Positions 25,089 through 56,411 of a DNA stretch of 64,000 nucleotides are shown one piece after another (the stretch's first letter is position 1; each line of letters opens with the position of its first letter). The position numbers were made by a program, and so were the translations under genes. This stretch comes from Patellaria atrata CBS 101060 (taxonomy: Eukaryota > Ascomycota > Dothideomycetes > Patellariales > Patellariaceae). The notes under the pieces are model-generated. The model saw only the letters and a program-made list of their open reading frames with translations. It was not told the origin of the DNA and made no database searches. The DNA is taken from NCBI GenBank assembly GCA_010093705.1, contig MU006089.1, positions 2,777,561-2,841,560 of the forward strand. Direction: 5' to 3'.

Positions 25089-28000
25089 AGGTGGCTGCAA
25101 CTTTTCAGGAAGGAGCGACGTGACCCGTCGAGCACGTGGTGACCCAGTTAGCCTTGAGGCAGTTCTAACATCGTGCTTCTGCTGCGTTCGACGATTTTTG
25201 AAAACTTTCCTGATTAGGGATTTCTAACTCGATTAGGCTATCAGAATGATTTTGCAATATCAGGTCAATATCAGGTCGCCATTTTGCGATATCAAATCCT
25301 GTTGAGACCCTCAAGCACGCCCTCTCGCAAACCCTTTTTCGCATTTTTACACTTCCGACTCCTCATCATACATCCTACAGGTTATATGTATTCATTTGCA
25401 TCGTCTTTGAGCTTTTTGATCATGCACTAAGAACCAAACCGCCGATGTCCCCGACCTTGAGCGATGTCTGCCTGATTCGGCTAGCGTGACTTTTTGACCA
25501 ACCGTGAGTTTAAAGCGTATGGCACATTATTTAATTAAAAAGGTAGAATATATCTCATGACTCCTCTATCTTCCCTCATAAAATTATCACCCGGGAGGAT
25601 TGGGGCAATTCAAAACAACCTTTACACCTTACCCCCTACCGCTTAACCCAAATTCCCAAACCAACTATCACTCTCCATATTTTCACCACATTAGAGCCAA
25701 GTCATCATTCTAAATTTCTCTTAATTTCTCTTACTTCATCCCGACAGACCCCCGATTCAGGCGTTTGATCTAGATGAAGCGCTGTCATAATTTTGTACGT
25801 GGGTCATGCTTTGTTTTTCTGGAGACGCATCCCTCACCTGACTTATATATCATTCTAGCCAACGGTTGTCAAACTGTAACATAACACTCTTAGTATACAT
25901 GACTCCATCCTCTATCCTTTTCCATCTTTCCTCGTGAAAAGCATTCGCTCTAAGGCTCATGCAATACGAGGGATTTATTGTCGTTCCTCTGCGTGTACAG
26001 GGTATCACAAGAGGGTCATTGGAGGTGTGGAGCGTGGAAAATTGATAAAGAGGGTGATCCGTTTGGTCAGAGGATATACGAACTAGGAAATACTACAAAG
26101 AAGAATAACAGCAGGGAAGGTGATGAAAAGTATTGCCATAGCATGATAATCCGCATCATTGTCACCACCATCATCATCACCGTGCCTATCTCCTACCCAC
26201 TCCTTTACCTCTGTACATTCCAAGGTCTAACTTCCCCGGGGGCGCCAGATCGACGGTGTCTGTATTAATGGACTACCCTAGAGCAGAAAAGGCACAATAA
26301 GGGGTATTTACACTAGTATGTGATTCCAGCGTGCTCACAATGCTTGAATGAAGTAGAAAAGAAGGAGAAAAGAGGAATTAGAGAAAGGTCTTATATCCCT
26401 TCGCGTTTTAGCGCCACTACCGGAGCACTGGACCGCCAGCATGTGTCTCAAAATGACCAAGACCCAAGGGACCGTTTGACACCCCCTCGCTTTCCTTCCC
26501 ACAGTATCGCAAATAAAACGACATAATATTCTTTTTTTCTCTTCTTCAACAACGCAAAACCTCACAAGTGGTCATCTCAGAAGATGTGTTACTTCCCCGA
26601 AATTTGAGCAGCTTTAGTCTGACCTAACCTTCATTATCGGCGACCGTTTCTAGGGCTGAATGGCGTGCCCGTATAACAGATCCTATTGGGGTTCATTTGG
26701 TTTGAAATCAGAAGGGGGAATTAGCCGGGACGTCCTGGACAGACTTGGTGCTCTTGTTGATATTATGGAAGTGAGAATAATGATAATGCTAACCACTTCC
26801 GTGGCAAAAGAATAATCCCCAACATCGATGGTTGGTACGCTGAAGCAAAGCACAATGGTTCACAGTGTCATTTTTAAACTGGTAAAGGGTTAAAAAATAT
26901 ATACTTCTCCTCCTCCTGGGCCCTATCCAGAAAAAAAAAGGGCCAAAAGAGAAGAGACAGAAGTTGAAGACATATCCACGATCACGGTGATGTATCAGCC
27001 ACAATCTTACCATGAATAAACATTCCCGGAACCCCAGCTGACCAGCTACCACATGAACAATCTCATACGAAATATTCCTCTCCCTTGTAATTTTTAGATT
27101 GAATAGATAGCTTTGAGTCTGAGAGTGATCGATATCAATTTCAATAAGGAGCGGTCCGAGCACCTCTGAATATTGACATGTACTGTACCAGCTGACAAAT
27201 TACGCAACGCACCACAAGCGCAGCCGAAGCCACAGGTACGCGCGTACTCAAAGGTCGCTGGACGTCGCTCTTGTCTCATACACTAGCCCACTATTGCAGG
27301 CGTGAATCCAGCTCAAAATCCCCATATTAAGGAAGGGGACCGAGCGAGGCAAGAGACTGTGCTTGTATTCAACATTTTGGGGATGAAGGAGAAAGGGGAT
27401 ATTGTCTTTAAGCGTACTGAAATTGTGGAAAGATCTGAAATGAAGGATGACTGAGGACTAGAAAGCACACTTGTTGGCGATCTGATTGGGTCTTTTGTTA
27501 CGGTTGTCCAATATGGTTGTCTGACCATCCGTTTACATCTTCCTTTCTCACAATGAGGAGCTATTAGTCACTGTGCACATGCTGTACATAGACTGGCGGA
27601 CTATGAAAATCAACTTCTCATTGAAGCATACGGAACTGTACAGCTCAGGTCGGAAGTTACCGTTTCGAAAGCGCAGAATCAGCCAGAAAGATAGTAACAA
27701 AGTCAAGACAATATTTGAATGATCATGACTGTTTACTCCTGTGAGTCTGGATGGGGGAAGGAGACATTTGAACGAAAGCTCATCTTAATCGAAGTTCGGC
27801 TTGGGAATTTTTCGCTTGATGCCAAGCGCGGAAGACTTGCCCGCGCTTTCAAACGTCCCGCCGAGCAACTTTACGTCAACTACAACCAATACGCCGCGGA
27901 TACGTACTCGAAAAATATTTGCTTTTACCCCGAGCTGATCTTTCTGATTAGTTGAAAAATATAATGTTACTGCACATGACCGGGAAGAAAACGTTACAAG

Positions 28001-28217: not shown

Positions 28218-30183
28218 ATGGCATCTACCCTGGATCCAACTAATGAGAAGCGGGTACAGACTCACGCTGTATCTGACGAGCATGTCATTCCTCGCGGCGG
28301 GTTTGATGAAGATGTTGCGCTTGCTCTTGTAGGAGAGCATGCTCAATATATCGATCCTGCATTAGAGGCTCGGGTTGTAAGAAAGATCGATCTGTTCCTG
28401 ATACCTACCATGTAAATACCAAGGCGCATCTGCGCGGTTTCATACGGACTGACATTCGATAGGATTGTTGGATATGGTCTTGTGTACTATGACAAGGCAA
28501 TCCTAGGTTCCGCTGTACTGTTCGGCATGACTAAAGATCTCTCCCTTGCCATTGTCGATACCTCAACCACACCACCAAAGACTGATACTTCCCGTCTCAG
28601 TTGGGCAACCTCCATGTTCTATTTTGGAATGCTGGCTGGTCTCTATCCAATGACCTTTGCGCTGCAGCGCTTCAACCTTGGCCGTATCTTAGGGATTGTT
28701 GTGATTTTCTGGGGCGGTGTCTGTATGCTCACTGCTGCAGTGACTAGCTGGAAAGGTCTCTATGCACAGAGATTCTTCTTGGGATTCGTGGAATCGATCA
28801 TCCCTACTGGTTTCATGTGCATTATCAGTGGTTACTACACCCAACGGGAACAAGCACTCAGACAGTCGTGGTGGTTTAGCTCAACGGGCCTCTTCACCAT
28901 AATCGGAAGTGCCTTGAATTATGGATTCGCTCAGGTAACAGGTGGGAATCTGAAAGCGTGGCAGTACATATACCTATTCGCTGGAGCATTGACAGTAGTA
29001 TATGGTTGTTTCTGCTTTGCTGTACCGAACTCTCCCGTAAGTGCATGGTTTCTAACCCCTGAGGAGCGTGTTGTAGCAGTTGAGCGGTTGCGTAGGGGAC
29101 AGACTGGAGTCAGGTGCCAAAAGATCAAGCTCTCCCAGGTCATTGAAGCTTTTACGGATATTAAGCTTTGGCTTGTCGCACTGTTGATGGCATCAGCGTA
29201 TGTTCTCTCAGTTCCAGTCTTCTAACGCATTGACTTACCGTCCTGTAGATATACCGTCAACGGAGCAGTCTCTGGATTTGGACCATTAATCGTTTCAACC
29301 TTTGGGTACTCCACGCTTGATTCTATTTTGTTTCAATTTCCGCTCGGTGCCATCTGCTTCATCTTCATTCTGCTCAGTGGGCTCATTTCTTCCAAAGTCC
29401 CCCACACGCGTTTAATCCAGCTTATCGTCTATTGCTTGCCTGTTATTGCCGGCTGTGCTATCATATGGCGGTCTACTTGGTCCCATAGACCTGTCGCGCC
29501 AGTGGTCGGGTATTCTATTATTGGATTCTTCGCCCCTGTGGTCAGTTTGACCATTAGTGTTGGCATGGCCAATGTAGCAGGTGCTACGAAGAAGAGTACA
29601 ATGGCTGCGGCAATCTTCGTTGCTTACTGCGTGGGGAATATAGTAGGACCCCAGCTGATAAAGAGCCAAACAAGGTCAAGACATTACCCCGAACTGTGGC
29701 TTGGTCTCATAATATGGTACGTATGAGCGAACTCGAAATGGGAAATTCTGTATGTTACCCCCCATCTCGGTGCAAGCTTCGCCTACTGTACGCTTGCCGT
29801 CAGGCTGTTCTCCGTCCCCTGTATGGGAGGTCAAAATAATACAAACAAGGCCCAACCGTACATTTGGCTTAGCCGTAACACAATGGAGATGAATTGATAT
29901 TGCGAAGTAGCAGCCGGACTCGTAACTATTGGACAAGCGTACAGAAGCTGAAGAATGCTGACCATGATGGGGAGTTGATAAATTTCTCTATTGAATCCTT
30001 GCTGACAATTTTTGCGACTACAGTTATTGTATTACGATCATCACAGCCATTGTCCTTTACGTGGTTCTGCGGCGGGAGAATAAGCGACGAGATAGAGTCA
30101 GCCTTGATGAAGATGAGAGAGACAAACTCGCTTTCAAAGATCTCACCGATAAGGAGAATCCGTACTTTCGGTATGTACTGTGA
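28218..30183 (+). CDS. MFS transporter, Dal5/allantoate permease (anion:cation symporter) type
   Basis: Four exons (28218-28411, 28463-29197, 29249-29716, 30024-30183) encode 518 residues. The N-terminal VRKIDLFLIPTM and LVYYDKAILGSAVLFGM are the family signature at helix 1, where the fungal Dal5/Tna1/Vht1 transporters start. GLYAQRFFLGFVES lies at helix 4, and FRYVL follows the last helix. Family members import allantoate, nicotinate, biotin, pantothenate or similar carboxylates; which one is not readable here. Introns 1 and 2 are 51 nt each, but intron 3 is 307 nt and falls inside the last membrane helix (LWLGLIIW to CYCITIITAIV). I joined it by frame and by family continuity. Confidence 0.85.
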
Positions 30184-44390: not shown

Positions 44391-47354
44391 ATGGCGCCTC
44401 CAGGCAGACGGCGTAACCCTCTCTCCCTCCCCTCCCTCTTCCTCGCATTCTGTCTCCTCGTCAGCACCGCCTCTGCGGCCTCAGCCGTTCTAGGAATAGA
44501 TCTCGGAACTTCCTACATAAAAGCTGCTCTCGTGAAACCCGGTATTCCCCTCGAAATCGTCCTTAGCAAAGACTCGAAACGCAAAGAGGCCAGCGCCGTC
44601 GCATTCAAACCCTCCAAGAACAAGGGTAGTGAGAAAGAATTTCCAGAGCGATTGTATGGTGGCGATGCATTGGCTCTACAAGGGAGGTTTCCAGGCGATG
44701 TCTACCCAAATCTGAAACCACTGTTAGGCCTCCCGGCGGAGGTTGATGAGGTTACCAGTTGGTGGAACCGACGACCCGCACTCCAACTCGTAGATGCGAA
44801 AATCGAGGGACGCCAAGGCGTCGGGTTCAAGAGCGGAAGTTTCGCGGATGACGAGAAACCCTGGAGTGTTGAGGAGCTATTGGCAATGGAACTGAAGAAC
44901 GTGAGGGAGAACGCGGAGTCGATGGCGAGTGGAAAGGTCGTCAACGCGGTCATCACAGTTCCTGCGTTCTATACCGCGAGAGAGAAGAAGGCGGTTGAGT
45001 TGGCGGCGGAACTAGCGGGACTGAATGTTATGAGTTTGGTTACGGACGGTGTGGCCGTCGGGATCAATTATGCGACATCCAGGACTTTCCCGAGCGTCTC
45101 TGAGGGTGGCCAGCCTGAATTCCATCTGGTTTACGATATGGGTGCGGGCTCTACCACGGCAACCCTGTTGAGATTCCAAGGCAAGACAGTCAAGGATGTT
45201 GGGAAGTATAATAAGACGATTCAGGAGGTACAGGTCATGGCTACAGCGTGGGATAAGACTCTGGGTGGTGATGCTCTCAATGGGGTCATTGTGGATTATC
45301 TGGTTGACGAATTCATCACGAAACCTGATGCGAAGAAGTTCACCGCTTCTGAAGTCAAAAACCACGGCAGAACTGCAGCTAAACTATGGAGGGATGCTGA
45401 AAGAGTGCGACAGGTTCTTAGCGCTAACGTTGAGACTTCGTTTAGCTTTGAGGGTCTCTATGAGGATGTTGATTTCAGACACAAGTTCTCCCGCACGAAA
45501 TTCGAAGAGTTGGCGGAAGGCTTCGCTGACAGAGTCGCTGGTCCTATCGAGGAAGTTCTAGCTATGTCTAGAATCCCTATGAAGGAGATCAACTCTATTA
45601 TTCTTCACGGTGGTGCTGTTAGGACCCCATTTGTCCAAAAGAAGCTTGAGGCTTTGGTTGGGGACCCTGCTAAACTTCGCAGCAATGTAAATGCAGATGA
45701 GGCAGCTGTATTTGGAGCTGCATTTAAGGGCGCAGGACTTAGCCCGAGCTTCAAGGTCAAAGAGATCAGGGATATCGACGTCGCGAATCACCCCGTTGGT
45801 ATTCGTTACAAGGAGGGGAGCGTGAAGAATATGAAACTCTTCCGGGAACTCTCGCAGAACGCGTTCGTCAAACACATGCCATTCGATATCCAAGACGATC
45901 TGGAGTTCACCCTATATCAGCAGGTACAGTCTCCCTTTGCCGGTTCAAAGTTCATCGAGAGCGATGTACTTCGCGTCAAGTCTACCAACCTTACCGCCTC
46001 TGTGGAAAAGCTTGGAGCAGACTTCGGCTGCAAAAAGTGGAACGTCAGCACTCGGTTCCAGATCCAGATTAGCCCTATCGATGGTCTTCCTGAGGTCATC
46101 AGTGCGCATGTGAGTTGTTCCCATGAGGTTGTGGAGAAGAAGGGTATGGTCGAGAATATTAAAGATAAACTCGGTCTCGGCGCGAAGAAAGACGGACAGC
46201 AAGAGGTCTTGAAAGATGAGAACGGTGAGGAAGTAGACACCGAGTCCTCCCCCGCTGATCCCCTCGACGAAGCCACGTCCTCTGTCTCGAGCTCCAGTGA
46301 AGCGACATCACCTTCAGACGCCCCTGAAAAGGAGAAGAAGGAAGAAGTAAAACCAGTGGTCAAGAAAAAGACGGAGATTATCAAAGTCGCATTTACTCAG
46401 ACCCCACTAGGACCAGAGAACCTTTCCAAAGAAGAACTACGAAGAATGAAAGACCGCCTCGCTGCCTTCGACGCCTCCGACCGTTCCCGTTACGCTCGCT
46501 CCGAAGCATTGAACACCCTCGAAGCCTTCACCTACCGCGCCCGCGACGTCATCACCGAGGAAGGTTTCATCGCTGCTTCAACCTCCGAAATCCGCCAGGA
46601 GATCGAGGACCTACTATCCAGCACCAGCGAATGGCTCTACGGCGAAGGCGTCGACGCACCCGTCGACACCCTCAAGTCCAAACTGAAGGATCTCAAGAAC
46701 CTCGTCGACCCCGTTTCTAAGCGGGCGGCGGAAGCGGTCAAGAGACCCAAGAGCGTGGAACTACTCCAGCAAACGCTCGATCAGACTAAGATGCTGCTCG
46801 GCGTCGTCGAGGACAGCATCGCCAGCGCTGCGGCTTCCGCCGCTTCTCTCGCGGCTGAGGCGAGCAAATCCGCCACCGAGGCCGCCAGTTCGGTCTCTTC
46901 GGTCGTGACGCCGGAGAAGTCGGGTGATGAGCTGGATGAGCTTGAAGAGGGATTGGAGAGCGACCTTCCGTCTACCGCTTCTTCGGCAACTGAGCCGGCG
47001 ACTACGCCCGACGCGCCACTTTACTCGGAGGAGGATCTCAAGGGCATCAGGGAAGCGTATCAGAGCGTGAGCGCGTGGTTGGAGGAGAAGACGGCTCTCC
47101 AGGAGAAGCTAAAGCCGTGGGAGGACTCGGCACTGTCGAGTCAAGAGCTCGAGGTCAAGGCGAGGGAATTGAATGAGGCCGTTTCGGGCTTGTTGACTCG
47201 GAGGATCAAGGTTGGGGGGGATAAGAAGGCCAAATCGAGCAAGTCGAAGAGTAAGTCGAAGAGTGCGAAGGCGAGTAAGTCGAGGAAGGCGGAGAAGGGG
47301 AAGGAGACGAAGGAGTCGGGGAAGGAGAAGAATGATGGGCATGATGAGTTGTAG
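44391..47354 (+). CDS. lhs1: ER Hsp70-family chaperone Lhs1 (Grp170/HYOU1 type)
   Basis: This is a single exon of 987 residues. The signal peptide (residues 1 to about 30, ending SAASA) and the C-terminal HDEL place it in the ER lumen. The nucleotide-binding domain starts VLGIDLGTSYIKAAL and includes VITVPAFYTAREKKAVELAA, LVYDMGAGSTTATLL and ILHGGAVRTPFVQ. The substrate-binding part is followed by an acidic, Ser/Glu-rich insertion (about residues 615-660) and a long helical C-terminal domain. The end is lysine/serine-rich. These are the features of the Grp170 class, which acts as nucleotide-exchange factor for Kar2/BiP and as a holdase. Its 3' end points into the repeat array at 47.7-53.2 kb. 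Confidence 0.93.
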   Translation: MAPPGRRRNPLSLPSLFLAFCLLVSTASAASAVLGIDLGTSYIKAALVKPGIPLEIVLSKDSKRKEASAVAFKPSKNKGSEKEFPERLYGGDALALQGRFPGDVYPNLKPLLGLPAEVDEVTSWWNRRPALQLVDAKIEGRQGVGFKSGSFADDEKPWSVEELLAMELKNVRENAESMASGKVVNAVITVPAFYTAREKKAVELAAELAGLNVMSLVTDGVAVGINYATSRTFPSVSEGGQPEFHLVYDMGAGSTTATLLRFQGKTVKDVGKYNKTIQEVQVMATAWDKTLGGDALNGVIVDYLVDEFITKPDAKKFTASEVKNHGRTAAKLWRDAERVRQVLSANVETSFSFEGLYEDVDFRHKFSRTKFEELAEGFADRVAGPIEEVLAMSRIPMKEINSIILHGGAVRTPFVQKKLEALVGDPAKLRSNVNADEAAVFGAAFKGAGLSPSFKVKEIRDIDVANHPVGIRYKEGSVKNMKLFRELSQNAFVKHMPFDIQDDLEFTLYQQVQSPFAGSKFIESDVLRVKSTNLTASVEKLGADFGCKKWNVSTRFQIQISPIDGLPEVISAHVSCSHEVVEKKGMVENIKDKLGLGAKKDGQQEVLKDENGEEVDTESSPADPLDEATSSVSSSSEATSPSDAPEKEKKEEVKPVVKKKTEIIKVAFTQTPLGPENLSKEELRRMKDRLAAFDASDRSRYARSEALNTLEAFTYRARDVITEEGFIAASTSEIRQEIEDLLSSTSEWLYGEGVDAPVDTLKSKLKDLKNLVDPVSKRAAEAVKRPKSVELLQQTLDQTKMLLGVVEDSIASAAASAASLAAEASKSATEAASSVSSVVTPEKSGDELDELEEGLESDLPSTASSATEPATTPDAPLYSEEDLKGIREAYQSVSAWLEEKTALQEKLKPWEDSALSSQELEVKARELNEAVSGLLTRRIKVGGDKKAKSSKSKSKSKSAKASKSRKAEKGKETKESGKEKNDGHDEL

Positions 47355-47699
47355 GATGGGGTTTGGGGTTGGAGTGGGGAAGGGGGAGCGATGTGTATAA
47401 GTATCTATATAGATAGGGAATAGAGGATGAAATGGGAACATGGAAATTTTATTTTTATATTGCTTTCGTTTACTTTAGGATGTTTGTGGTATTGTCGCCT
47501 TTCTGTATTGTACAATACGTCTCCAAGATGTCGTTAAACCGGACCGTACAGCAGAGTTGTGAGGGGTTTAGGGGTTTGGGATTAAGGTGCAGAGCGGTCG
47601 AGGACTGCTAGCTGTGTAGTGATCATTGTGTTTATGATAGGGATTCAGATGGTCGGGTGAACCGGTCAAGTGCGCTTCTGTTTCACTGGTATGCAATGG

Positions 47700-50600
47700 T
47701 CTGCTGGTCTGCTGCTGGTGGCGCCAGTATCCCAAAGCCAGGGTATACCACCTCCTCCCCCTTCTCTACTCTCTTCTTTCCCTTTTACTTGTCAAGAAAG
47801 AAAGGAAAGGGTCCGCAACTCACTTGCGTGGGAAGAGTGCATTGGGTTTGGAAACTGAAGACAGTCAGTCATTGGGTCTGCTCTGAGCCTCTTGCGGAGC
47901 CTCTTGACGATTCTCCATCCATCCGAGGTTTCAGTACGTTTTGACACATCCAAGTCGGTTTATTGGAGGGTAGTTCTCGTCTGTTAAGCAGAGAAGAGTC
48001 TTGATATTGGTGTGGGTTGGGAAAACCACTCTCTCTCGATTTGGTATCGTTTGAGTTATTTCAGGGTTAGGGGAGGGGAGGGTTGGTGATGATGAGGATC
48101 AACCGTGAGGGTACACCGTATGACTTCCCCTTTTGATGTATATCGTCATCTGTTCAGGGGCGGGGGAGTGTTGGTTTAGACGGTAGACTATCCCATCACC
48201 AAGGGATCAGTACGTCGGCCGAGAAGGCGCTGCCCTGTACAAATAAAATTACTCTACTGCTTCCGGAAAGGAACAATTGAGGGTTGACTCGGTGCCCGGA
48301 AAAATGGATTGGAGTCTTTTGAAAAAACGGCCAATGACTGATAGAGCTTGACGTTAGAGAGGAGTAAATGGAGGTAGAGAGGATATATAATGCCTCAGGA
48401 GCTCCTTTTATGGTGAAGAAAGAGTGATGTTTTAGTCACGTCTAGGTAAGAGATAGTCAGGGGGTGTTGTCAGATGCTCCTTTGGTCTACTGCTCTGGAG
48501 GTATGCCGCTGGAAGAGCAGAAGGGAGAAGGGGTAGAGGTATAAAATTTCTCTCCTCCTACTACTTGCTCCCTTCTTCTTCTTTTCTCCATTAGGATTTC
48601 AGAAGACTCGCGGCCTACTGGTCGTATCGCTTCCTTGAGGGAGTCAAAACTAGTATTAGGTCCAACTTGAAACGACACACGTTGGGGGAGGTTAGAGAGT
48701 ACAAGGTTAGAGCTCAGGGGAGGACGTTACCGTAAGAAGAAGGGATAATAGTAAGTGCGTGATGGTGATGAGGATCATTGTCGTACCATAGAGGTGTTTG
48801 AAATCGTTATTACTAACATCGTCACCATGGCCATGGCAAAATTATACAAACTTATTCTTACACGAGTGCTAAGCCCCATGATGAAGTGGACTCCACGGAT
48901 TCCAACCAATTCCAATGCTCGTTTTGACCCTTCCCACCTTGTCATCTTGAACCCACCTAGCACTTAACGACAATTGGAAGCATTCTTTTCCTGCAATAAC
49001 AGTGTGGGAGCCGACGAAGCCACTCTTAAATGCATTCTTAGATGAGTTGTTGACGACGAAAAAGGGAAAAAGAGAAGAAGGAGATTTATGACCTTGAGGA
49101 AAGGGTAAAAAGGAAGAAAGGAAGTCATGCGGTACAGTCACCAGTCTTGAGGCTTAGAAGAACGTATGAATAGTCTAGGAAAGTCCGTCTGCCAAGATGA
49201 AAGGGGTATAAGTCTTCGACTACTGTCTCTTCCTCTCTTCCTTCTTTTCCATTAGGACATCTGGAGCAGTTGGATTGCCGTATCATCTTGAAGCCGGATA
49301 TTTTGGGGGTTTTAACTGGGGGACCGACTTTATTGGAGCGCTGGTTGAACATTCATCAGCGATCGATTTGGTTGTGGGTATTGGAGATCTGGAAAGGGGG
49401 GGATTGATAAAGGCTAAGAGTCAGAGGTCAAGGCAGAGATGTTTTGGCTATCGGTCACCCTAGGACTCCGTTACTGATATCCTTCATCACTATGGACATA
49501 TGATACTTTTCTCGCTATCAAAACCTAGATACGATATTTTTTGACGTCCGCCCCTTAACTCCGAATGTCTCGCATAGAAAACCCCTTTGCTCTTATTCCC
49601 TCCTTCCCTATGCCAACTGCCCCTTTTCTCTCAGCATCCCCATTCACTCCGCCTACCACATGTACTATGAGGCAATCGTTGACACAATGAGGAGCTGAGG
49701 ATTACTACGACTCGTACCGGTACACAAGCACATCTAGAGGCTGGAGAGTCTGGTTAGCCCCCGAAGTAAGGAAAACGTTCTGTACAGAAGGAAATGGGTT
49801 TTAAAATAGAAAGGAAAGAAGAACCAAGACTATGATAACATTTTGCGTCAGAAGGGCTTAAGAGAAGATAAGTGGATAACTGGTCAGCCAGCGGTGTCTT
49901 GTTATTGTATAAGGAGTTCCCTATTCGGTTATTCCTCCTTCTCCAACAGATCAACTGCAGAGGGTATTAATTAGTATTCACACGGTACAGGGAAATTCCT
50001 GAATCCTGTTTGTCTGAATAAGTGCACAAGCCGTTTTGTTGACATCATTACCACTACCTAACGCCAATCATCGCCATCGAGGTCTCATGAATTTCACTAT
50101 CACCGCTTTCTCCCGCCTTTAGCATTCATCTATTCCACTTCCCCTAGAGTTCAACACCCCAAATTCTCCATCCACAATATTTTGTGTATACTTTTTTAGG
50201 GTCAGTTTCTCGCCCACACAAACCTAATGGGTCTAATAGTAACCACGTTGGGCTCATTAAACCTATCCAAGATAGAGGACTCTATCACTATTGTGCAAAG
50301 TTGAGCAGGAAGAAAGAAGGAGAGAAACTTAAGTAGTGAGAAATGGGGAGGAATATCCATGTCAAATATACGTAAAGGTTACGGTATAGGGGTTAGGGAA
50401 TACAAGCCAAGCATGACTGAATGCCTGAAAGTTCTGGCACGTGGAATGAACAGTGTTATGTTTCGATATAAGTTCTCTTCTCTCCCGTGTTCTTTGCTTT
50501 CTTCGCCGTGCACTTCTTAGATTGGAAATAACGAGAATGGATGGAGGGTCGCCATTGTATTTTATGCTGAACAACCAACAAGTATTTTGGGGCTCCGGTA

Positions 50601-53250
50601 TCTCATAGCACTCAGCTGCCCTATCCGGAAGGCTAGAGATAAACATAGGATTCAATACCACTTACTGGGACAAACTCCTGATAAAAACCTTTTAATATTG
50701 ATTCCCATCACTACCCCCAGCTGATAATCCCTAACATTTACCCCTTTAATCCTCCATTAAGATCTCACATAGCGTCACCATCGTACTAAAACTCCTATTG
50801 CCCTTCATATCTCTACAGGACACGGTGACGGTACAGTACGAAAAGCCCTGTCAAACTCGCGGTTTGATTGTATTTGCTTTACACAGCACAATGATGATCC
50901 TTTGCTTTTCAATGTCTTCAAAATGTCCGGTACGGCCTCATTTTTGTCCAGAAGAAAATAGTTTACTTGTGAGATTTCAAGGTAGGATCCCAGTCATTTC
51001 TACAGAAACGAATGAAGAGTTGGGGAGAAAGGATTTAAATAGTAGAAAGGGGTAGAGGAACCGATTATAGATGTACGGTTAGCCATAAGAAGTACCTTAA
51101 TCGGAAGGTGAGCGTCGCATGGTGTAAGGGGCCGAAATGTCCGATTGCAGTGGCACACATCCAAATATTTGTCTCCTTTACTTCTTCCCACAATTGAGAT
51201 CCTACGAATTGTATTTTCCTAATGAGAAGACCTCGAATATCCGTGGCTTCTTTCTTTTAGACAAGTGCCGCCTCTGTATTCGCTTCTGGAGGACTAAAGA
51301 CAGGCTTATTAGCTCCATTGCCAACTCCATTTAATCAGACTATCAGAGAAATTCTCTGAAATTGCATCCCTAATAATGAATCTCATCGTCGACTAAACGC
51401 GATATTCCTCACCACCGACTTACCTATTCAGATATCTCTGAGCACCTCCCTCCTCCCCATCTAGATCCCCCATATCTCCAACTCTCTAATTTCCAACCAC
51501 TCCTCCACCGACAATAAGATAGGTTATCATATCATAAACTTCCCAGCCCACAGAGCCCAATGTTTTGATGTGGCCGGAATTCCCACAATCAAAACTGTCC
51601 CAGATAATGAAAGGAAAATCGCCAATTTAACTAACCCAAGCTAACTATTCAGTCTTTTTTGGTAGATGGAATAGCGAGGGAGGAACAGGCTCTAAATAGC
51701 AAAGAAACATAGAAGAGATAGGTCATAGGTACGTAGTAGTCAGCAGAGGCAGATGCAGGCGATGAGAGCATAGAGACGTAATGTACAGCCGAAACCAGGA
51801 GAAACGGTCATATGAAGTATGACGAAAAGGGGTAGATTCATGAGTGGGAATAGGGGTGGGCCGTGTATATAAAGCTCTTCCTCATATCTGAGATTTCTTT
51901 CTTCTCTAGATAGTTAGCGGAACATACTACTAATGAAGATGGGTTTGGAATAACATGGTTCAATTTTATCACCAATATATTCACAGCCGTTGGGGAAGGG
52001 TGGGTAACTGGATACCCGACTCACGAAGGTGAGATACTCCCCTAAGACATCCCTTATTCTCCATACTAATGCACCCCATCACCACGTCCACACACTACCC
52101 TTCACCGTCTTATATACAATCATCCTCACTATTACTTAGTCCTTCCCTTCCTTCCTTCATTCCTATCCCCTTCCCAATCTAATCCCCCAATCCTCCTCTC
52201 CATCCCAATTTCTCCCGGCGTTTGACGTATCCCACACCACCCAATTTGCATCACGTTTATGATGCACAAACCCAACCTAATCACGCTCTTGTATTGCAGA
52301 TCCGGAAAAGAATAACCGGTTTCCAACGCTCGAGCACAATGAGTCTGTGTCTTGGTTGTTGCGTTTCAGAAGATAGAAGCTAACGAGAGAGGAAGGGGTT
52401 TTATATAGTAGAGATCCACAGGTAGGAAGAGGGGATGGTATCTCGATCACGAGAAGGGATATGTCATGAGGTATTAGGGGAATAGAGGGCGTATGATATA
52501 CTTCCAATCGGAAGGGATGCCATCACATTACTGAGACGCAAAATCGCCGGCGTGGAGATCCGTACATAAACCCTCCTATTCCTCTCAGAATCCTTTCTCC
52601 AACAACTGAGCCGTAGGTTTCATGGAGTGGTAGACTCTAATGGCCATCTAAAGATGCTATTGCGCTCCGCATACATAAGAAAGATTTCCCATTCGGCTTT
52701 GGGCTTGTCCTGGGTATACGCCCATTCTAAACCAAAATTCCCAAAGATACTTACAACGGCAGTAAACCTCCAGCTCGAAACTGACCCCTTGATCCCTCGA
52801 GCCTGAACCCCATCACTGTAGTCACACGCTCCTCAGAGTCCAAGATTCTCACCACCATCAGTACTCTCAATTTTATTCCAACTCAGACTGCATCCTGATC
52901 CCCCTCCCCCATTTCCATTTCCACTTCCTCCATCTCACACAACCACACCCTCCCTCCACCCAATAAAGAATTGATGTAGCAGTGTCACCACACACACGCA
53001 ATCAATATGGTAAGGTCTTTCATCTCAAGACAATACCACAACTGAATCTCCATCCACCCAATTTTATGCATGATTCTAATATCTCAAGGACTCAACCACC
53101 CAAAAGAGGTGCGCTATCGTTGAAAAAAGACAAACACCGAGTGAGAAAAGGAAGGTGTTAAATAATCAAGATTCCTGGGGGACCGGGTCGTAAGAAAATA
53201 GTACTCATGACGAATTGGGCAACGTATGACCGGTTCAGCTGATTCGGGGA
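47700..53250 (+). repeat. Diverged tandem array of ~0.7-kb promoter-like units
   Basis: No coding sequence is found in this region, which lies between two convergent genes. By eye it shows the same three landmarks in the same order about every 560-800 bp. Landmark A (CATCACYACC-like) lies near 48192, 48820, 49484, 50042, 50704, 51407, 52076 and 52808. Landmark B is a purine-rich block around TTWAAATAGTAGA. It lies near 49800, 50327, 51033, 51691, 52397 and 53156, with weaker forms at 48381 and 49085. Landmark C is TATAA or a variant, then a 30-50-nt pyrimidine tract ending in YAG. It lies near 47744, 48540, 49207, 49908, 50467, 51164, 51868 and 52566. Spacing A-B is 190-350, B-C 108-177 and C-A 134-280. 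GTGATGATGAGGATCA (48087) and GTGATGGTGATGAGGATCA (48761) are similar. Copies are strongly diverged, so the array is old. Function unknown. Confidence 0.5.
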
Positions 53251-54011
53251 CGATATCATGTAACATGCTATCATACGGGAATGTGAGCTAGTTATCCCAC
53301 AATATGGTGGTTGTACTGTCCGCAAACTTGACCTCAGGCTAGTCCTTTCCCTATTACGGGTTGATTCGCTTACTGCACGCTCGCTCCCGGGGGAATCTCC
53401 GACCTTGCTGTACAGACGAGTACAAACCATAAAGAACACGTAGCAGTACGTAGGATTCGACCATGTAGATACTGGAGATTGGCTGATACTGCGGGTTAAT
53501 AATTTCCCATTACCTGTTTACCAAGCGTACAGAGCCCTAAGAACATCCACGGGAGAGGGAGAGTAATTTTATTTGCAAGTACAAGCATATGCAATAAACA
53601 TCTAGAATTGCAGTGATTCAAACTTGAAGATATTATATTCTCACATCCATGTCTACCCTAGCATGTCCTCATCATCAGCGTAGGAGAGAGGAAGTAATAA
53701 GAAAAATTTGAATGGCATTGACACAACTCATCTCGTCGTCGCCTAGAAGCCTCTAGCCAAAGCTAATTGTTCCCCAGACATCAAACCATTGACTTGAACA
53801 AATGAAGAGGTGTTGAATATACGTCCACTGTGAAAATGTACTGCAGGAAATGTAAAAGTAGGCATCGACATGTTTAGCATATGCGCTAATGACGGATGGA
53901 AGGCGTGGTGGAAAAGAAGACTTTTCGTTTATATGGGTATGATATGTGGCATGATGATGAAAAGAGTCCTGCAAACATGTAATCATAGAAGAAGAAGGGG
54001 TATCTCGTCGT
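53251..54011. other. Intergenic, nothing recognised
   Basis: This is the 3' flank of the minus-strand Hsp70-like gene, beyond the last recognisable array landmark. Confidence 0.45.
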
Positions 54012-56411
54012 TTATCGGAACCTGGCTGAACAACGGCCCATGACCTCACCCTGGCAGACAAGTTCGGCGTTGAACTCACTACCGTCAAGAGTGAGATATA
54101 TGTCGAAGTAGACGCGGTAGAATGTGCCTTGAGGAGTATCCATGCGTTCGAAGTCCTTCTCAAGGTTCTTTCTTGAGAGATCAGAGGTAAGCGTGACAAC
54201 TTCCTTGATACCTGGATGTGTGTTAGAATCGTTCTATTGACTTCACAGAATAAAACTTACGAGGATCCTTGGTATATTCGGGACAAACATCGTCATCACA
54301 AGCGTATAAAATATCTTCATACATGAGAGTTGCACCTGGTGCCACCTGTCGGAAGAAAGAAACTTTGACAGGCTCTCCAATCTTGACTCGCTGGCCTTTC
54401 TGGACGAATATTTGCCTGGTGTACTTGCAACGATCTTTGCCGTCCAGGGAAGGTACACGGTATTGTTCTGGGTGATGGCCCTCCTTGAACGGTTGGAGAG
54501 TAGCCATAAGGTAATGCCGACGAGCGACACGATGAGTGACCACCCGCTCTGTGATACCTGCTGTGACTGCACCCTTAACGATGGCAGCTACTGAGTCCAT
54601 AGGACGGACGACCTTAGATTGGAATTGAGGAGGAACGTGGAGTTTGATTTGCTGGAAAAGATATTCTGAAGCGCCGAAACCACCCACAACAAGCACGTTC
54701 TAAGACAAGTAAGCGAGTGGTCTGCTATAGAAAAGTTGGTACATACCTGCAATGCTCTGTTTTGAGCTTGAATAGCGATGATTTGATTTCTTACAAGCTC
54801 CAAGATCCTATTAACTACAGGTTCGAAGCACTGTAAGATCTCCTCATTCGTAAAAGTCATGTATCCTTCCTCGATACCAGCTTCTGGGAATTCTGCTTCA
54901 ATACCAACGTCAACGGCCCATTTCTGACCGTTATTTCTGAAGTCTGCTTTAATTCTGTTTTCGAAGTCCATGATACACTTCGCATATACCTTTCCAGCTG
55001 TTCTTGAACCGTCCGGGAGCTTCATTTTCCTGATCTTGGCACGCAGAATGTTGCTAAAATTTCGATTGAGCGCCGTTGAACCGCACGAGTCACCTGAGCC
55101 TGCAGTACATTCAGCTACAGAGAACGGTTGCTCCTCCTCTACCTCATAGGCGATCAAATCGACAGTGCCGCCACCGCAATCGACGATGAGCACTGCATCG
55201 TGTATCTTGAGGTTTAGAAGACCAGTCTTGGAACAGAACATAGCGGCTGCTTCAGGTTCTGTAATCAGTGTCAGACGGTTGTCGTTCTCGTCTCGTAAGA
55301 ATCCAGCTTGAATGGCTGCGGCTCTCGTTGCGGCTTTACCCGCATCATTCCAGATGGCCGGGACCGTGAGAAAGTATTTGATGTTGCGCTCCTCCCGATT
55401 GAATACCTCGCCTAGGGTTTTCTGTAACTGATTTCTCATCGCTTGTCGTAGGTGGAAGAGATAGTCTGCTGCAACATCAATCTCAGACTTCCCTGGTGGG
55501 AGAGGAGGAAGATTGATGGGGTCAATATATGTATTGCCAGAAAGCATGAGCTGTAGTTTAAACCATTCAACCTTCTGGACACCAGGTTTAGGGTATCCGG
55601 TGGGCGCGAGGGCATCCGAGATGTCAGGGCCCCAACCTACGACTTTTTGATACTGATCATAGTAGAGAACTGTGGGTATCTGGAACATATTGTCAACACT
55701 GATCACGTCATATGGTAAAACTGTGTGTTATACCTTTTGTTTTGTCTGATTTCCAGCTCCCGGCCACTCAGTTATGATGTCTTCCTTTGCTTCAGTGTTT
55801 GTTGCAAAAGCGAAAGCAACGCCAGAAAAGGTTGTTCCCTAAGTGAACGACTGTTAGATATAGCAATTCTGAAATAGTGGAGAGGATGATCGTACAAAGT
55901 CTATTCCGACAATCAATTGGGCCTTACTCCTGCCCGCACCTTCCACTTCTACAGCGGTAGCACCTGGGGGTCTTTGATAGGACTGTGGTCCCGCTGGAGG
56001 AGGACCACCATACGGATGCTGTCCGAATCCTTGTTGAGGTGGTGGTATGTATCCAGGTGGTCCTTGAGGAGGTTGTTGGCCATACAACTGTTGCTGTTGT
56101 GGCGGGTAACCGTGTCCAGGAGCAGCACCGGTGTTGATAGGCGGTGGAGGCATGGGGCTGGTCGGTCTGCCATGTTGTTGTTGCTGAGGGGCGAGTCCTC
56201 CGGGAGGAGCGTAAGTGTACGACGGCGGGCGGCCGAGAGGATTGTTTGGATTCATTGGGAGTGAGGTGGTAGAGGAACTGGGGTTGGAGGGAGGGGAGAG
56301 CGAAGAGGAACTGCCTAGAGGCGGGGTGGTGTTCGTTGGGGACGCGACGTTGTTCGATGATCGTCTTCGCGAGCCTACAAGATTTTTAAAGCGAGCGTTC
56401 ATGGACGACAT
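54012..56411 (-). CDS. Hsp70/actin-fold ATPase domain protein (HSPA12-like)
   Basis: Five exons (56411-55896, 55838-55734, 55679-54747, 54699-54261, 54211-54012) encode 730 residues; introns are 47-57 nt. Residues 1-160 are rich in Pro, Gln, Ser and Gly (PPQQQQLYGQQPPQGPPGY) and disordered. The ATPase fold then starts with LIVGIDFGTTFSGVAFAFAT (phosphate 1). Further on come FLTVPAIWNDAGKAATRAAA, LITEPEAAA, VLIVDCGGGTVDLIAYEV (phosphate 2) and VLVVGGFGASEYLFQQIK (adenosine). It lacks the canonical Hsp70 substrate-binding domain and EEVD tail, as in the HSPA12-like group common in fungi. The cellular role of these fungal members is unclear. It has no signal peptide, so it is probably cytosolic. 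Confidence 0.88.

Follow-up and report, generated by a model that had tools for sequence, protein, structure and literature searches.

What fills an interval of 6.6 kb that is bounded on both sides by gene 3' ends and holds no recognisable coding sequence? This question is raised by a locus of the fungus Patellaria atrata CBS 101060, which we analysed within a single 64-kb stretch of DNA from this one species (GenBank assembly GCA_010093705.1, contig MU006089.1, positions 2,777,561 to 2,841,560), hereafter the window, numbered from its first letter. An initial annotation had described the interval as an old tandem array of about eight 0.7-kb promoter-like units without coding sequence. Our results support this description, and self-alignment, shuffled controls and a landmark-free scan indicate that composition alone is insufficient to account for it. 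Considering what its copies have retained, we find it somewhat probable that the array consists of about eight duplicated bidirectional promoters that would drive serial non-coding transcription, the act of transcription, and not its product, being the function.

A tandem array with a period near 700 bp

47500..53220, no strand assigned: tandem array of units U0 to U7 plus a truncated U8, with a period of ~690–700 bp, occupying most of the 6.6-kb interval

Self-alignment against shuffled controls, the check proposed with the initial annotation, set the band of offsets 625–775 above all controls, with a score of 204 compared to 83 ± 12 in global dinucleotide shuffles, 128 ± 18 and 132 ± 16 in 40-bp and 25-bp local shuffles, and 132 ± 17 in purine/pyrimidine-preserving shuffles (0/40 reaching the array score in each of the four kinds). 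The second harmonic (1320–1480) scored 142 against 79 ± 9 in global shuffles (0/40) and was equalled by 2–3 of 40 local or purine/pyrimidine shuffles, and off-register bands below 1200 bp scored like their controls. Smoothed purine content over 48000–53250 reached its maximal autocorrelation, 0.465, at a lag of 683 bp. Permuting blocks 300 times for every one of three block sizes gave no value as high (maxima 0.33, 0.32 and 0.39), and among 118 stretches of 5.25 kb the best one free of overlap with the array reached 0.322.

The landmark-free scan traced the self-similarity at 600–780 bp from 47.5 to ~53.2 kb. Scores of at least 90 were obtained at 19 of 56 starts inside the array versus 11 of 554 outside (19 border starts excluded), with similar means inside and outside at a control offset (63.9 vs 64.3), and the best 5-kb stretch had a mean z of 1.12 in the array vs 0.60 elsewhere in the window. 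A global cyclic profile scored 2019, compared to 1878 ± 22 for global and 1927 ± 22 and 1939 ± 24 for local shuffles (0/10 each); its leave-one-turn-out version at best reached 2002, above the highest local shuffles (1966, 1940) but below the highest global one (2024), and is not relied on. Leave-one-out profiles, with hits of the training units set aside, recovered 5/7 units: the left-out unit ranked first for U1, U2 and U5, and second for U4 and, by a tiny margin, for U7; U3 and U6 were not recovered. Adjacent units were the most similar (p = 0.003 raw, p = 0.04 composition-corrected), as expected for tandem duplication, and descent by this process is the simplest reading. At the array, TRF, whose longest period was 500, reported nothing, the repeat finder gave short fragments only and BLAST self-comparison one weak pair.

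The landmarks from which the array had been read by eye need some correction. CATCACYACC is exact only once in the interval (50706), and with one mismatch it is found 12 times on the plus and 11 times on the minus strand of the whole window, 4 and 3 of these in the interval; TTWAAATAGTAGA is also exact only once there (51034). The seven listed TATAA positions stood for five, 51164 being AATATT and 52566 lying within CATAAA. By eye, a GTGATGATGAGGATC-type motif, the reverse of the CATCAC motif, is visible in U0 (48086–48102) and U1 (48760–48778). A 46-aa open reading frame (ORF) of U1 (48827–48967) begins at a CATCAC site, no similar ORF being seen elsewhere among the units.

Divergent promoter-like pairs and their preservation

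The landmark described as a purine block reads on the other strand as TATA followed by a pyrimidine tract, e.g. TATATAAAACCCCTTCCTCTCTC at 52407 (minus strand). It is thus a minus-strand promoter-like site, and most units would be divergent pairs of fungal-type core promoters. In filamentous fungi, core promoters are usually built of TATAA with a pyrimidine tract after it (PMC4046813, PMC9703631). In A. nidulans, TATAA lies mostly 30–45 bp upstream of the start, within a context that is pyrimidine-rich from −50 to +25 and with starts often at CA (PMC4046813), and the bidirectional xylP promoter retained 8% of its activity when TATAAG was mutated and 22% when the pyrimidine tract was mutated (PMC9703631). 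This design accounts for the TATA-to-pyrimidine-tract order formerly compared to first splice acceptors, and no conserved exon comes after it; splice acceptors were accordingly rejected. Both patches of a unit resemble such core promoters and face apart.

Both strands of the whole window were scanned for TATA plus a 32-nt pyrimidine (Y) tract. Beyond the seven units first listed, an earlier U0 (plus TATA-like at 47744) and the truncated U8 (minus site at 53164) were distinguished.

47744..47795, plus: U0 plus promoter-like site; TATAC, Y tract; score 16.0; U0–U1 alignment 130
48335..48389, minus: U1 minus promoter-like site; TATATAT and Y tract; score 12.2
48540..48592, plus: U1 plus promoter-like site; TATAAAA, Y tract 0.92; score 18.6
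49040..49090, minus: U2 minus promoter-like site; CATAAAT and Y tract; score 17.0
49207..49256, plus: U2 plus promoter-like site; TATAAG, Y tract; score 15.3
49750..49837, minus: U3 minus site, weak; scan peak at 49837, score 8.4; block-homologous TATTTTAAAA at 49808
49906..49955, plus: U3 plus promoter-like site; TATAAG, shorter Y tract; score 8.6
50290..50335, minus: U4 minus promoter-like site; TACTTAAG and Y tract; score 11.1
50465..50520, plus: U4 plus promoter-like site; TATAAG and Y tract; score 16.0
51000..51041, minus: U5 minus promoter-like site; TATTTAAAT and Y tract; score 12.8; the clearest purine block of the initial annotation
51164..51205, plus: U5 plus site; AATATT, without TATA; Y tract partly retained; below scoring in the promoter scan
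51655..51698, minus: U6 minus site, weak; TATTTAGAG and Y tract; score 5.7
51866..51915, plus: U6 plus promoter-like site; TATATAAAG and Y tract; score 13.8
52350..52407, minus: U7 minus promoter-like site; TATATAAAA and CCCCTTCCTCTCTC; score 15.5
52563..52615, plus: U7 plus promoter-like site; CATAAA, Y tract; score 8.4
53115..53164, minus: U8 (truncated) minus promoter-like site; score 11.9; U7/U8 alignment at ~760 bp

TATAA is present at 5/8 of the plus sites of U0–U7 (TATAC in U0, CATAA in U7, none in U5). No plus partner was recognised for U8, and the stretch due to hold it (53224–53618) instead resembles the region of a major facilitator superfamily (MFS) gene, for which reason U8 was rejected as a complete unit. 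The minus-to-plus distance is 117–170 bp in U1, U2, U4, U5, U6, U7 and U8, the plus position of U5 and U8 being without TATA, and 71 bp in U3; site phases on the two strands are 139 bp apart at a joint period of 692.

Sites scoring at least 11 are concentrated in the array, which holds 7/11 plus and 7/16 minus sites of the window (1.0 and 1.5 expected), 5 plus and 6 minus of them at register positions. At a threshold of 7, 21 sites lie in 47400–53400, no other 6 kb of the window having more than 7. Divergent pairs spaced by 80–190 bp numbered four in the window at cut-off 8, all in the array; a fifth (26397/26512) appeared at cut-off 6.5, and cut-off 5 gave 11, of which the array holds six, including one off register. 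For convergent pairs, cut-offs 8, 6.5 and 5 gave window totals of 1, 2 and 4, the array accounting for 0, 1 and 1 of them. Across 100 shuffles of each kind, strict pairs reached at most 1 (global) and 3 (40-bp local) vs 4 observed, and loose pairs at most 4 (40-bp) vs 6 observed. YCA follows TATA by 20–60 nt in 14/16 array sites (not U4 plus and U6 plus) and by 30–50 nt in 10/16, counts without control, a YCA being often expected by chance. Outside the array, 20/33 sites scoring at least 7 have an ATG ORF of at least 80 aa within 1.2 kb downstream, also without control.

Agreement between copies was then profiled after removal of composition by 30-bp local shuffles (60 per test). With the eight units anchored on the minus TATA, agreement peaked at the minus promoter-like site (z 3.2, 0/60) and again 150–180 bp on, at the plus site (z 3.8–4.0, 0/60), with a fainter patch 180–240 bp upstream (z 1.7–2.1, 1–3/60). 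Anchoring on the plus TATA gave a peak at +30 (z 5.8, 0/60) and values between −0.3 and 1.5 past +60. Pairwise, promoter segments had a mean z of 1.41 with 7/28 array pairs above 2, compared to 0.13 for body and 0.30 for distal segments (2/28 above 2 in each). The segment behind the plus promoter-like site is the least conserved part of the unit and inter-unit spacers are little conserved. On these sequence comparisons, the promoter-like sites are better preserved than bodies that would be equally old.

A solitary relative and the surroundings of the array

26066..26556, minus: X, lone unit relative outside the array; minus TATA at 26397 and plus TATA-like at 26512, 115 bp apart

X was first found by similarity, as the best rest-of-window match of U0, U1 and U2 at a common place, strand and register (26.07–26.56 kb, minus). 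These matches scored 122, 142 and 152, the maxima of eight local shuffles each being 142, 133 and 128, and the match of U0 taken alone is not significant. The best rest-of-window match of U3–U7 is not at X, and that of U8 is the MFS region. Compared with U0–U2, X scored 128 vs 79.7 ± 8.7 for shuffled X, and with all eight units 92.1 vs 70.6 ± 4.2, neither value being reached in 500 local shuffles. Of ten TATA + CT sites outside the array it ranks first, with a mean of 98.5, none of the remaining nine exceeding 77.5, and it is the only divergent pair there at cut-off 6.5. The whole-unit profile gave E 6e-4 on its plus and E 0.008 on its minus strand (best of 12 shuffles 0.013). Since the profile favours the plus strand, the orientation of X is not clean outside the promoter part. 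A GTGATG/CATCAC arrangement similar to that of the array was seen by eye at 26150–26182, and X holds two box-like motifs, one C-like and one D-like, separated by 110 nt. The same intergenic region contains snR36, an H/ACA small nucleolar RNA (snoRNA; 27181–27359, minus), the one RNA in the window to pass its Rfam gathering score.

Judged by their ORFs, the genes of the window look fungal. Those bordering the array both belong to the Hsp70 family (PF00012), and the interval does lie between their 3' ends, as first described.

44391..47354, plus: left flank, LHS1-type Hsp70 gene; Pfam PF00012, E 2.8e-66; protein ends in HDEL; 3' end towards the array
54010..56411, minus: right flank, Hsp70-like gene with introns; 3' end towards the array

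The left gene is presumably LHS1, the name given in the initial annotation. On the right, the ORF 54588–55706 matches PF00012 (E 1.4e-6), the end of the coding sequence and the introns being placed by eye. No relative of the LHS1-type protein was found among viral contigs, a 16-mer comparison with viral contigs gave 40 matches, all at chance level, and 390 of its 987 aa queried against prokaryote contigs returned a single bacterial relative (27%), of no use for comparison. GC skew declines over 47001–53000 (0.30, 0.17, 0.09, −0.12, 0.00 and −0.29 in 1-kb steps), a fall that might be a trace of read-through from both convergent genes.

An element of ~160 bp occurs in two copies (29786–29944 and 53373–53532) with terminal inverted repeats of 12/13 nt and 10/13 nt. 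Its alignment over 53363–53574 has 126 identities and 80 mismatches, and a longer match (53224–53618 / 29643–30028) scores 221 vs at most 151 in eight shuffles. By eye, an unusually long intron of an MFS transporter gene seems to contain the first copy.

Candidate functions and competing explanations

Several kinds of product or origin were considered for the units. Protein-coding units were rejected, since a translated comparison of seven units (T−40 to T+400) gave a top score of 55, the 24 controls having a mean of 49.6 and a maximum of 62. The decayed mini-genes suggested by the initial annotation also find no support in this control-level similarity, or in the poor conservation behind the plus promoter-like site. 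Its other suggestion, small-RNA hairpin precursors, is not sustained by folding: z < −2 was obtained for 6.9% of 376 folds vs 5.2% of 576 controls, and an excess of stable folds is not clear at z < −3 either (1.9% vs 0.9%). Rfam yielded nine matches in the interval, all below gathering scores (best E 0.55), and nothing above gathering score besides snR36 over the intergenic regions of the array and X. A snoRNA cluster, an idea prompted by snR36, was rejected after a negative structure search in which snR36, as the positive control, passed the H/ACA test; within the scanned +30..+330, the H/ACA design is absent from the eight units and X, and in none of the eight units does a D box come after a C box. 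ARAGORN found no tRNA in the window. A repeat mutated by repeat-induced point mutation was likewise rejected, the indices TpA/ApT (0.85) and (CpA+TpG)/(ApC+GpT) (1.12) being ordinary when compared with six other stretches (0.73–0.94 and 1.06–1.22).

Under the explanation that we favour, ancient tandem duplication would have multiplied a ~0.7-kb non-coding module with a bidirectional RNA polymerase II promoter to about eight copies. Each pair would direct non-coding transcription both ways, and the plus transcript of one unit would meet the minus transcript of the next in the spacer of 0.33–0.5 kb. Because the promoters persist while the bodies drift, we infer that it is transcription as such that is retained. 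Most likely, it would keep the interval open and so provide a zone of buffering or interference that separates the two convergent chaperone genes; alternatively, overlapping sense/antisense RNA may mark the locus, as does convergent transcription at the dicer-independent small interfering RNA (disiRNA) loci of Neurospora. More speculatively, and doubtful when taken as a whole, the array could represent a new kind of fungal locus. It would be a selected array of divergent promoters with the act of transcription as its only function and mutually convergent non-coding transcription in each spacer, forming a self-made transcription buffer or small-RNA source between convergent stress genes, while the homologous X would make the module a reusable genome part.

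The odds that we give to the competing readings rest on the similarity tests, and several observations weigh against the favoured explanation. The TATA matrix and score thresholds were set by hand, and three strong array sites fall off register (49575 plus, 52111 plus and 48545 minus, the last being the palindromic reverse of the U1 plus TATA). U0 has no minus partner in register, and elements are weak or lost in U5 plus (without TATA), U7 plus (CATAA), U3 minus and U6 minus. Site positions alone are weakly periodic (Rayleigh p 0.24 and 0.29, joint 0.09), and the CA start context is too frequent to count as evidence. In 20-bp local shuffles, strict pairs reached up to 4 (mean 1.47) vs 4 observed and loose pairs up to 7 (mean 3.79) vs 6 observed. 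Since local shuffles yield such pairs, part of the signal is purine/pyrimidine architecture. Finally, under the plus-TATA anchor the minus-promoter zone reached only z 1.0–1.4 (4–11/60), a blurring due to its variable distance to the plus TATA.

The main and serious rival, a real possibility albeit on balance an unlikely one, is that the array is an inert relic. Promoter-bearing sequence, tandemly duplicated in the distant past, would then be in neutral decay, and its promoter patches would only look conserved, their purine/pyrimidine tracts eroding slowly or being favoured by mutation. The failure to find a product, the weak or lost elements of several units and the large part of the score already held by local shuffles all agree with it, but conservation beyond composition at both promoter-like sites, close to zero in bodies of the same age, does not, nor does the same paired design retained in X. 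A cluster of small genes with their own promoters and fast-evolving bodies, yielding very short peptides or non-coding RNAs outside the known classes, appears improbable to us. A kept promoter with a drifting body is what separate genes with like promoters would also show, and the 46-aa ORF of U1 and the box-like motifs of X could be read in this way; this is countered by the control-level translated similarity, the Rfam result for the interval, the lack of H/ACA and C-then-D box designs in the scanned parts and the unclear excess of stable folds. Least probable of all is a recurring regulatory composition without common descent, in which promoters arose separately and their spacing is coincidental. 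Other sites of the window do share the TATA + CT look and periodicity is weak when positions alone are used, yet the offset spectrum, the neighbour effect, the similarity beyond composition and the lower self-similarity of the best 5-kb stretch elsewhere speak for common descent.

The favoured explanation has partial counterparts in known systems. Satellite arrays and the dg/dh repeats of S. pombe are likewise repeated and non-coding, and are transcribed (both ways for dg/dh), as predicted for the array, but the copies of the present array are far more diverged, few, located in gene-rich DNA and persist mainly as promoter-like patches. To our knowledge, the cascade of mlonRNAs (long non-coding RNAs) at fbp1 of S. 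pombe is not built of repeats. Its serial non-coding transcription crosses an intergenic region and opens chromatin, which is predicted here, but upstream of one gene, whereas the array lies between two 3' ends and is made of repeats with opposed promoters (PMC12566771). The xylP/axs5 intergenic region of Penicillium chrysogenum shares with the units a bidirectional arrangement and, for xylP, TATAAG plus a pyrimidine tract before the start, but there one promoter region serves two genes, instead of about eight tandem copies with no recognisable gene (PMC9703631). At Neurospora disiRNA loci, where convergent transcription triggers DNA methylation and divergent promoter transcripts were noted, overlapping opposed polymerase II transcription takes place in gene-rich DNA, as predicted for the array; in that study, however, the tested locus, frq/qrf, pairs a gene with its antisense partner (PMC3764098). 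Tandem arrays of ant odorant receptors have copies with bidirectional promoters giving sense and antisense RNA, but each copy encodes a receptor, whereas our units have no coding body (PMC12393541). Searches of open-licence literature brought up no account of a fungal array of repeated or bidirectional promoters without genes.

Offset-restricted alignment recovered here a tandem array whose divergence had defeated the repeat finder and BLAST self-comparison, and the paired TATA + pyrimidine tract at 115–170 bp, repeated, offers a signature that can be searched in other fungal genomes. If inert, the locus would still be a documented, very old promoter-bearing array. If transcribed, it would be a natural case of promoters multiplied and retained with every transcript body free to change, and would disentangle the importance of transcribing from that of the RNA made, an old question on intergenic transcription.

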